Assembly (NCBI RefSeq): GCF_000803215.1
Contig: NZ_JSXC01000001.1
Span: 1-64,000, forward strand
Direction: 5' to 3'
Length of the DNA: 64,000 nucleotides
Source: Pectobacterium fontis
Lineage (GTDB): Bacteria; Pseudomonadota; Gammaproteobacteria; Enterobacterales; Enterobacteriaceae
In this document: piece after piece, positions 47,273 to 50,339 of the stretch
Layout of the letters: every line of letters begins with the position of its first letter
Numbering within the stretch: position 1 is the first letter of the stretch
Made by a program: the position numbers and the translations under genes
Notes under the pieces: model-generated
Seen by the model: the letters and a program-made list of their open reading frames with translations, nothing else
The model's database searches: none
What the model was told of the DNA's origin: nothing

Positions 47273-48277
47273 CTATTCTTCCCGCGTTAAACCAAAATGC
47301 CGATAGGCATGCTGCGTCGCCATGCGACCGCGCGGTGTACGCTGGATGAACCCTTGCTGGATCAGAAACGGTTCCAGCACGTCTTCAATGGTTTCGCGCT
47401 CTTCGCCAATCGCTGCCGCTAAATTATCCAACCCGACGGGGCCACCCATGAATTTATCGATGATCGCCAACAGCAGCTTACGGTCCATGTAGTCAAAGCC
47501 TTCGGTATCCACCGCCAGCATATCGAGCGCCTGCGTCGCTACTTCACCAGTAATCGCGCCCTCCGACTTCACTTCAGAGAAATCACGTACCCGTCGTAAT
47601 AATCGGTTGGCAATACGTGGCGTACCACGCGATCGACGTGCGACTTCAAGCGCGCCATCTGACGTCAGATCCAGCCCTAAACACTGCGCACTGCGGCCAA
47701 CGATATACTGCAAATCGGCGACATTATAAAATTCCAGGCGCTGCACAATGCCAAAACGATCGCGTAGCGGTGAGGTTAACGAGCCTGCGCGCGTCGTTGC
47801 ACCAATCAGCGTGAAAGGGGGTAAATCGAGCTTGATCGAACGGGCGGCAGGCCCTTCGCCGATCATAATATCCAACTGATAATCTTCCATCGCCGGATAC
47901 AGCACTTCTTCCACCACAGGCGACAGACGGTGGATTTCATCAATGAACAGCACATCATGTGGTTCAAGGTTCGTCAGCAGCGCAGCGAGATCGCCGGCTT
48001 TTTCCAACACTGGCCCCGATGTCGTGCGCATATTCACGCCCATTTCATTAGCGACAATGTTCGCCAGCGTCGTTTTTCCCAGACCGGGAGGACCAAAAAT
48101 CAGCAAATGATCCAGCGCATCTCCACGTTTACGGGCAGCCTGAATAAAAATCTCCATCTGCTCACGTACCTGTGGCTGCCCCACGTACTCGCTCAGCAGC
48201 TTAGGCCTCATCGCACGATCAAGAAACTCTTCTTCGGGAACGGCGTCAGCAGAAATCAAACGATCGGCTTCTATCAT
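47273..48277 (-). CDS. ruvB: Holliday junction helicase motor RuvB
   Basis: RuvB is the AAA+ ring that drives branch migration of Holliday junctions with RuvA. The product is 334 aa with Walker [10 protein letters not shown], Walker [10 protein letters not shown], sensor 1 IGATTRAG, and a C-terminal winged helix (about 255-330). The ATG at 48277 gives the start MIEADRLIS; it sits 7 bp after the ruvA stop. Confidence 0.97.
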
Positions 48278-48284
48278 GAGTACC

Positions 48285-48902
48285 TCACAGCGCCGCGCGC
48301 AGTGCATCCCTAATCAGGGTTTCACAATCAGCATCAGGACGCGCAATCTTGGAAATCATGCGGCTGGCTTCCTGCGGTTTATAGCCCAAGGCAATCAGTG
48401 CCGCAGCGGCTTCTGTCTCAGGATCACCCGCGCGCGGCTCTGTGGTAGCAGGAGATGCCAGCGGAATATCACTGACCGGATTAAACAGATCGCCGCTCAA
48501 GCCCTTGAAGCGATCTTTCATTTCAACGACCAGTCTTTCCGCCGTTTTCTTACCTACCCCAGGGAGTTTAACCAGCGCGCTGATTTCTTCGCGCTCCACG
48601 GCACTGACAAACTGCGTTGCCGACATCCCGGAAAGGATTGCCAGCGCCAGTTTCGGCCCCACGCCATTCACTTTGATCAGCTCACGGAACAGCGCCCTCT
48701 CCTGCTTATCATTAAAGCCGAACAGCAGTTGCGCATCTTCACGGACAACAAAGTGGGTAAAAATAATCGCTTCCTGATTGAGTTCAGGGAGTTCGTAAAA
48801 GCACGTCATCGGCATATGGACTTCATAACCCACGCCGTTAGCTTCTATCAGCACCTGCGGCGGCTGTTTTTCCAGAATAATGCCTCTGAGACGACCTATC
48901 AC
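48285..48902 (-). CDS. ruvA: Holliday junction-binding protein RuvA
   Basis: RuvA forms a tetramer that holds the four arms of a Holliday junction and loads RuvB. The 205-aa product has an OB fold (1-62), two HhH motifs ([11 protein letters not shown] and [11 protein letters not shown]) and a C-terminal RuvB-contact domain. A LexA operator and a sigma-70 promoter lie upstream, so ruvAB is SOS-regulated. Confidence 0.96.
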
Positions 48903-48948: not shown

Positions 48949-48977
48949 AGTATATAACATAAAAAAGGCTGGATGAA
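48949..48977 (-). promoter_or_regulatory. Promoter of ruvAB
   Basis: On the reverse strand, -35 TTCATC (48972-48977), a 17-bp spacer and -10 TATACT (48949-48954). The LexA box covers the -35. Confidence 0.65.
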
Positions 48978-48986
48978 TATCCAGCC
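48961..48986 (-). terminator. ruvC terminator overlapping the LexA box
   Basis: A perfect 8-bp stem (GGCTGGAT with ATCCAGCC, 4-nt loop) is followed on the reverse strand by TTTTTT. It lies 8 bp past the ruvC stop and fits a classic Rho-independent terminator. Confidence 0.8.
48969..48984. promoter_or_regulatory. LexA (SOS) operator of ruvAB
   Basis: CTGGATGAATATCCAG fits the LexA pattern CTG-N10-CAG with A/T-rich centre and resembles the E. coli ruvA operator. It overlaps the ruvAB -35. It also lies inside the hairpin that looks like the ruvC terminator. Confidence 0.8.
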
Positions 48987-48993
48987 TCCTGTT

Positions 48994-49515
48994 TCAGCGC
49001 AATCGTCCTGCCAGCGGGTTTGCTTTCGTCACCGCCGTACGCAGTAGGTTTTGGCTAAAGTGGCAATGCGTAATGGCAATCGCCAGCGCATCGGCGGCGT
49101 CGGCCTGTGGGCTGGCCGACAGCTTCAGCAGTGAACGAACCATATGTTGCACCTGCTTTTTATCCGCTGCCCCCGTTCCTACCACGGTTTGCTTGACCAA
49201 CCGCGCGGCATACTCAAACACTGGCAGATCCTGATTCACCCCAGCGACGATAGCCACACCGCGCGCCTGCCCCAGCTTCAAGGCTGAATCGGGGTTTTTC
49301 GCCATGAAAATCTGCTCAATCGCCATACAATCCGGGCGAAATTGCGTAATGATTTCACTGACGCCTGCGTAAATCAGCTTAAGCCGCGTAGGCATATCAT
49401 CCACCACGGTGCGGATGCAACCGCTACCGAGATACGTCAGATGACGCCCCTGCTGGCGGATAATGCCATAGCCCGTCACACGCGAACCGGGGTCAATGCC
49501 GACTATGATTGTCAT
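48994..49515 (-). CDS. ruvC: Holliday junction resolvase RuvC
   Basis: RuvC cuts Holliday junctions made mobile by RuvAB. The 173-aa product has catalytic acids D7 in [13 protein letters not shown]66 in MAIEQIF, and the late acidic pair in [13 protein letters not shown]. It is separated from ruvA by a terminator and promoter, so it is expressed with yebC rather than with ruvAB. Confidence 0.96.
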
Positions 49516-49595: not shown

Positions 49596-50339
49596 TTACA
49601 GCAGTTCAGCCACCTCATCGGAGATCTCACCGTTGTGGTAAACCTCCTGCACATCGTCGCAGTCTTCCAGCATGTCGATCAAACGCATCAGTTTCGGTGC
49701 CGTTTCTGCATCCATGTCGGCTTTGGTGGACGGAATCATCGAAACTTCAGCAGACTCCGCTTTCAGGCCAGCCGCATCCAACGCATCCTTCACGTTACCG
49801 AATGTTTCCCACGGCGTGAAGACGTCAATCGCACCATCGTCATACGTCACGACGTCATCGGCGCCCGCTTCCAGCGCCGCGTCCATCACCGCATCTTCAT
49901 CCAGACCTGGCGCGTAAGAAATAACGCCTTTTTTGGTGAAGAGATAGGAAACGGAACCATCCGTCCCCAGATTACCGCCAGTTTTCGTAAAGGCGTGGCG
50001 CACTTCAGACACGGTACGGTTACGGTTATCACTCAGGCATTCCACCATGACAGCCGTGCCACCTGGGCCATAGCCTTCATAAATGATGGTTTCCATGTTG
50101 GCATCTTCATCACCGCCGACACCACGGGCAATCGCACGGTTCAGGGTATCGCGCGTCATGTTGTTGGACAGAGCTTTATCGATCGCGGCGCGCAGACGGG
50201 GGTTAGACCCAGGATCGCCACCGCCCAGACGGGCTGCGGTAACCAGTTCGCGGATAATCTTGGTAAAAATTTTACCGCGTTTGGCATCCTGTGCTGCTTT
50301 ACGATGCTTTGTGTTCGCCCACTTACTATGACCTGCCAT
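49596..50339 (-). CDS. yebC: YebC/PmpR (TACO1) family protein
   Basis: YebC-family proteins were described as transcription regulators, and more recent work ties this family to translation of difficult peptide stretches. The 247-aa product has the family start [21 protein letters not shown] and the segment [11 protein letters not shown]-like ([18 protein letters not shown]). It lies in the aspS-nudB-yebC-ruvC order known from E. coli. Confidence 0.94.

Follow-up and report, generated by a model that had tools for sequence, protein, structure and literature searches.

The window, the whole 64,000-nt stretch of the Pectobacterium fontis contig that was analysed, carries on its minus strand the genes yebC, ruvC, ruvA and ruvB in this order, each recognised by an NCBIfam model above its cut-off (Table 1). 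The nearest named RuvA is that of P. betavasculorum, at 97%. A gap of 91 nt separates ruvC from ruvA, and the palindrome considered here lies within it. A model search also finds lexA in the genome (275.4 bits), and a LexA-type box precedes the gene by 30 nt. Two other regions, G000:C28:8807-9154 and G000:C38:24026-24391, match the LexA model over its C-terminal part, with scores below the cut-off, and are perhaps UmuD-like; a LexA-type site (C28:8717-8732) is found about 75 nt upstream of the former.

Table 1. Genes and predicted elements around the ruvC–ruvA gap. Column counts for the outer arms and the T tract refer to 118 distinct ruvC-adjacent sequences of the family.
Feature	Position	Strand	Basis
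yebC, upstream of ruvC	49596..50339	-	NF001030, 375.4 bits vs cut-off 243
ruvC	48994..49515	-	TIGR00228, 263.8 bits vs cut-off 100.65
6-nt spacer, ruvC stop codon to hairpin	48988..48993	-	sequence
Left outer arm AGG, outside the LexA core	48985..48987	-	G at -1 in 111/118, at -2 in 104/118
LexA operator core (predicted), CTG-N10-CAG, CTGGATATTCATCCAG on minus strand	48969..48984	.	dyad; E. coli ruvA box, 14/16
Predicted terminator hairpin AGGCTGGAT-ATTC-ATCCAGCCT, 9 bp, 4-nt loop	48966..48987	-	-14.0 kcal/mol alone
Right outer arm CCT	48966..48968	-	C at +1 in 115/118, at +2 in 99/118
T6 tract behind hairpin	48961..48966	-	columns +3 to +8 are T in 111-118 of 118
Predicted extended -10 of ruvAB promoter, conserved register, TG-T-TATATA	48951..48959	-	TGnTAnA in 85/118
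-10 of the original prediction, TATACT, 2 nt downstream of the conserved register	48949..48954	-	sequence
ruvA, GTG start	48285..48902	-	TIGR00084, 217.9 bits vs cut-off 85
ruvB	47273..48277	-	NF000868, 542.1 bits vs cut-off 282

From the stop codon of ruvC onwards, the minus strand reads TGA AACAGG AGG CTGGATATTCATCCAG CCT TTTTT ATG T TATATA CTCG. The core of the palindrome begins 9 nt past the stop codon and is framed by GC-rich arms and a run of T, as AGG-CTGGATATTCATCCAG-CCTTTTTT; on the plus strand the same element appears as AAAAAA (48961-48966) followed by GGCTGGATGAATATCCAGCC (48967-48986). The first T of the T6 tract pairs within the hairpin, and the tract also lies inside the spacer of the ruvA promoter. 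The sequence, the fold and the coordinates of the dyad confirm the original prediction of a palindrome, a minus-strand T-run and a CTG-N10-CAG motif at 48949-48986. The 16-bp core together with CCTTTTTT is identical in all 25 genomes of the genus, and ruvC ends 9 nt upstream of it in 24 of them. One locus of the same genus (L004, genome G126) has 127 extra nucleotides between the ruvC stop codon and the box; its left arm is down to one pair while CC is kept in the right arm, and the insert itself yielded no terminator-like hairpin.

Counting motifs alone was rejected as evidence for the element. CTG-N10-CAG is frequent in the window (28 occurrences observed, 12.2 expected), and a lax terminator scan did hardly better than its shuffles, with four sites in 3 kb and 2.9 +/- 2.0, respectively. 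A stem of 9 bp with a 4-nt loop and at least five T in eight bases occurs at nine strand-places in the window, two of which are one site read on both strands. Elsewhere in the window, the segment 62317-62346 forms a 9-bp hairpin that has a T-rich tail on each strand and looks like a two-way terminator. The bare motif is thus weak by itself, and the site rises above chance because of its dyad, its position and its conservation. The 43-nt minus-strand RNA, taken with its flanks, folds at -17.4 kcal/mol (z = -4.76), and none of 200 shuffles was as good.

As a DNA site, the core resembles a known LexA box. Table 4 of PMC3009722 gives TTCGCTGGATATCTATCCAGCATTT in front of ruvA as the LexA-like motif of one of the UV-induced E. 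coli genes, and the window core agrees with it at 14 of 16 bases. The core lies 66 nt from the start of ruvA, in the predicted promoter of a DNA-repair gene. It is kept at the orthologous position in all 80 named loci, these being the best 80 of 518 relatives, and the ruvA box persists in many genomes in which ruvC lies far off or was not found in the stretch. The 20-mer LexA consensus TACTGTATATATATACAGTA has no match with up to three mismatches anywhere in the window, and the fourth core position is G/C in place of T/A. This poor fit is not taken to exclude a LexA operator, because the listed E. coli ruvA box departs from the 20-mer likewise. Family f27 (L024-L026 and L168-L171) has a canonical CTGT..ACAG box at ruvA in seven of seven loci, where ruvC either lies at a distance of 82 to 1063 nt or was not found, as if the CTGG..CCAG form seen elsewhere favoured the hairpin.

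Behind the core, the columns of the 118 distinct ruvC-adjacent sequences of the family read CCTTTTTTATGnTATAAR. The original prediction had placed a promoter at TTCATC-17-TATACT; such a promoter can be read from the letters, but the register conserved among the 118 sequences is TG-T-TATATA, 2 nt upstream. A simple promoter scan listed no site in either register. The candidate -35 hexamers are poor, and an extended -10 promoter would therefore fit the region. Whichever -10 register is taken, the operator covers the -35 region.

As an RNA signal, the palindrome has a direction. A U-tract follows the hairpin only on the side facing away from ruvC, where T6 is found, and the other strand continues with CCTGTTTCAG. 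Among 18 published E. coli LexA boxes the ruvA box gives the most stable fold (-10.6 kcal/mol), followed by polB on the other strand (-9.4 kcal/mol) and recA (-8.7 kcal/mol). None of 15 other LexA-like sites in the genome, which derive from 17 matched places including two without a locus and some of which may be chance matches, has a T-run of at least five or a fold under -8.7 kcal/mol.

The position of the hairpin relative to the stop codon bears on its strength. In E. coli, translating ribosomes almost completely repressed a test terminator placed several bp behind a stop codon, and in the same tR2 test system termination rose to about 0.9 beyond 30 bp, ribosomes being reported to hinder the folding of the hairpin (part of PMC4824070). 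The hairpin of the window starts 6 nt past the ruvC stop codon, so that a translating ribosome should often block its folding and read-through would be expected. Across 76 genomes with adjacent ruvC, the stop-to-hairpin spacing has a median of 9 nt, with 48 genomes at no more than 15 nt and 13 at 27 nt or above (arms capped at three pairs in this count). The 'good terminator' of the original prediction does have a stable GC-rich hairpin and a U-tract, but its strength is put in doubt by a stop codon 6 nt away (PMC4824070). Termination of ruvC transcripts is probably partial, translation-dependent and leaky. The main text of a Dickeya dadantii transcript map (PMC9239193) does not mention ruvA, ruvB, ruvC or LexA.

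The core itself cannot separate the two roles, because LexA and the hairpin both need the core palindrome. The GC arms outside it can, because the LexA consensus is flanked by TA (PMC8072944, in part), in place of the GG and CC found here, and a terminator wants strong closing pairs. We handled 223 loci, 127 of them in the window's family by group code; we take the codes f1, f9 and f21 to stand for Enterobacteriaceae, Pasteurellaceae and Vibrionaceae, respectively. Exclusion of 22 loci of the genus (L032-L053), of the near-duplicates L003 and L084, and of six loci that failed a filter left 97 genomes. The filter asked for CTG-N10-CAG with at least six of eight dyad pairs, and it also removed four of nine f21 loci. 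Two of the loci filtered out of the family show a box and would fit the reading, L115 with ruvC adjacent and arms present, and L094 with ruvC not found and arms absent; the others (L126, L146, L163 and L165) have no box.

The arms tend to follow the position of ruvC. At least two outer pairs are present in 68 of the 76 genomes with ruvC no more than 60 nt upstream, against nine of 21 displaced genomes, in which ruvC is more than 60 nt upstream or was not found (Fisher p = 2e-5). The choice of 60 nt as the limit was made once the data had been seen; five of the 21 displaced rows lie at 63-97 nt, and L141, counted as displaced with ruvC not found, stops at a contig edge. Hairpin energies also differ between adjacent and displaced members of the 97 genomes (p = 4e-6). 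We examined relatedness on a ruvAB tree of 110 rows, obtained by a quick search on ruvAB DNA and comprising the best 80 of 518 relatives, E. coli K-12, the window and 28 further rows; its raw proportions are no survey, because 15 of the 28 further rows were picked for a displaced ruvC. Among 12 independent pairs, arm loss goes with displacement in 8.4 and against it in 0.0, with no difference in 3.6 (median p = 0.008). Since an upstream insertion replaces the left arm mechanically, the right arm was also taken alone: 5.8 pairs go with displacement, 0.0 against and 6.2 show no difference (median p = 0.03, range 0.016-0.22), and four of 200 random pairings had one pair in the opposite direction. 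With displacement redefined as more than 200 nt or not found, six of eight independent pairs go with the reading and none against (p = 0.03).

Substitutions within the arms point the same way at one position. Outer pair 2 is GC in 95, GT in 9 and AT in 8 of the 118 sequences, and none of 5000 shuffles, which ignore relatedness, matches the observed pairing; covariation at outer pairs 1, 3 and 4 is not above shuffles in the same 118 sequences. A strand test on the adjacent genomes of the family, with five events only, gave four GU, no AC and one other change, which leans in the expected direction; results elsewhere were mixed. The T-run had been expected to mark the terminator and was dropped as such a mark: it is no shorter in displaced genomes (Mann-Whitney p = 0.55, Fisher p = 0.46). 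Being equally long when ruvC is displaced, it is no proof of termination by itself and may serve the promoter.

Named genomes illustrate the contrast. The box of Klebsiella pneumoniae lies 12 nt from ruvC and has three outer pairs, and five Citrobacter loci at 12 nt have three or four, against none in Citrobacter FP75, where the distance is 2317 nt. Among Yersinia, Y. similis (40 nt) and Y. frederiksenii (38 nt) have three outer pairs each, and Y. rohdei, with ruvC 199 nt off, has none. E. coli K-12 differs from the window in that yebB and yobI stand between ruvC and ruvA; its box stands 811 nt past the end of ruvC and retains one outer pair, against three in K. pneumoniae, and another hairpin lies behind ruvC. 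On that strand yobI is the gene upstream of the box, 71 nt away, and the residual E. coli hairpin might serve yobI. A scan with a lax T criterion, run without shuffles, found that a different hairpin, more stable than -16 kcal/mol, starts no more than 8 nt past the ruvC stop codon in five of seven named displaced genomes (E. coli K-12, E. whittamii, Escherichia EC7003, a Pseudocitrobacter and Citrobacter FP75) and in three of 16 further ones. The same scan found no replacement hairpin behind ruvC in Y. rohdei and in five of the 16 further displaced genomes, and the others gave weak candidates only.

There are also exceptions. Eight of the 76 genomes have fewer than two outer pairs despite an adjacent ruvC, the named ones being four Providencia, two Rouxiella and Edaphovirga. 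Outside the family, f2 genomes, in which ruvC lies at 30-89 nt, show weak hairpins (-3.8 to -4.1 kcal/mol), and long stems occur in some genomes of f21 and f10 though ruvC is far off or was not found. In family f9 (L204-L211 and L055), the ruvC stop codon directly abuts a LexA-type box (distance 0) in nine of 12 loci, and in the abutting loci the outer pairs are AA/TT and the T-rich tail is broken.

Judged from the sequence and its variation among relatives, it is quite probable that the palindrome both serves LexA as its operator at the ruvAB promoter and ends, as an intrinsic terminator, the transcript that carries ruvC, and a conserved operator-terminator of this kind is probably real. The idea of one palindrome with two roles, put forward in the original prediction, gains from comparison, through the match to the E. 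coli box and the arms kept beside ruvC, but the coupling by LexA that went with it does not. The site might instead be an operator only, with a palindrome that folds on paper, a T-run that is promoter spacer, and a single ruvC-ruvAB transcript supplemented by an SOS promoter in front of ruvAB. Core and T-run do persist where ruvC is far away, as in E. coli; the stop-codon spacing disfavours termination (PMC4824070, in part); and part of PMC3323433 describes ruvCAB as an ancestral operon whose inner LexA site is presumed to mark a secondary promoter. We nevertheless regard this account as unlikely, in view of GC arms that lie outside the core, persist next to ruvC and are frequently lost where ruvC is distant, of the covariation at pair 2, of flanks that are GG and CC where the LexA consensus has TA, and of the 15 other LexA-like sites of the genome, which show neither the T-run nor the fold.

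The converse, a terminator that ends ruvC at a palindrome where LexA is inactive, appears extremely improbable. It can draw on the G/C at the fourth core position and on the unmatched 20-mer consensus, as well as on Salmonella, where ruvA was not among the genes raised by nalidixic acid and so was added by hand, according to a passage of PMC8072944. Against it stand the near identity to an E. coli ruvA box listed among UV-induced genes (PMC3009722, Table 4), the persistence of the core where ruvC is absent from the stretch, and a V. cholerae table in PMC5963079, whose entries for ruvA (4.7) and ruvB (4.1) we read as fold induction by mitomycin C. The coupling of the original prediction, in which bound LexA would also halt the polymerase coming from ruvC, so that damage opens promoter and read-through together, is very unlikely, even though the operator does lie in the path of that polymerase. 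The polymerase would reach LexA before the hairpin is made. RNA polymerase extends about 18 bp from its active site to its front edge, so that, with 9 nt between the stop codon and the core, it would stall before it has finished the ruvC stop codon and could not go on to terminate at the U-tract. The core lies within 12 nt of the stop codon in 48 of the 76 adjacent genomes, and such stalls would be costly. A useful coupling through LexA stalling read-through is accordingly unsupported, its geometry being awkward at these general polymerase dimensions.

The operator-terminator that we favour would work as follows. In duplex DNA, a LexA dimer would sit on CTGGATATTCATCCAG, over the -35 region of the TG-TATATA promoter, and would keep ruvAB low until DNA damage, as orthology suggests. 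In RNA, the same bases with the GC-rich arms and U6 would form a hairpin that ends a part of the ruvC transcripts, as fold and evolution indicate; the arms seem to be retained mainly where the element stands directly behind ruvC. A ribosome finishing ruvC may often block the hairpin, allowing some read-through into ruvAB. The net effect would be a ruvCAB operon split into a ruvC unit with a leaky end and a ruvAB unit with its own SOS promoter. A tentative extension, which we think rather improbable, is a three-way switch within about 60 bp. LexA would set the ruvAB promoter, the hairpin would terminate transcription and the ribosome at the ruvC stop codon would gate the hairpin; basal RuvAB would come from read-through tied to RuvC synthesis, with SOS adding a private promoter, and the polymerase arriving from ruvC would also dislodge LexA from its operator, or would start again at the promoter where it had just terminated.

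The element has partial counterparts among known systems. It shares with the E. coli ruvAB SOS box an orthologous CTG-N10-CAG in front of ruvA, 14 of 16 bases and a T-run behind it (PMC3009722, Table 4). In Vibrionaceae, LexA sites in front of ruvAB have been presumed to mark a secondary promoter, and gene insertions split ruvCAB (part of PMC3323433). The LexA site between ruvC and ruvAB is common to that arrangement and the window, but the part of PMC3323433 that treats it does not mention termination, whereas the window has GC arms and T6 beside the ruvC stop codon. Like the tR2 test terminator (PMC4824070, in part), the element has a hairpin and U-tract within several nucleotides of a stop codon and is predicted to be ribosome-sensitive; in contrast to that terminator, its hairpin core is also a predicted binding site for a repressor and belongs to the promoter that follows. 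In the literature searched, which takes in few subscription-journal papers, no account was found of a LexA operator that also acts as a terminator. To our knowledge, LexA boxes are generally treated as DNA sites.

In many genera of one family, a repressor palindrome seems to have gained a second use at the RNA level, which would be a simple way to split an operon while keeping it under SOS control. The dual reading predicts mutations that separate the two functions, and genomes with displaced ruvC offer natural controls. Mutating such a LexA box may alter the 3' end of the upstream gene.
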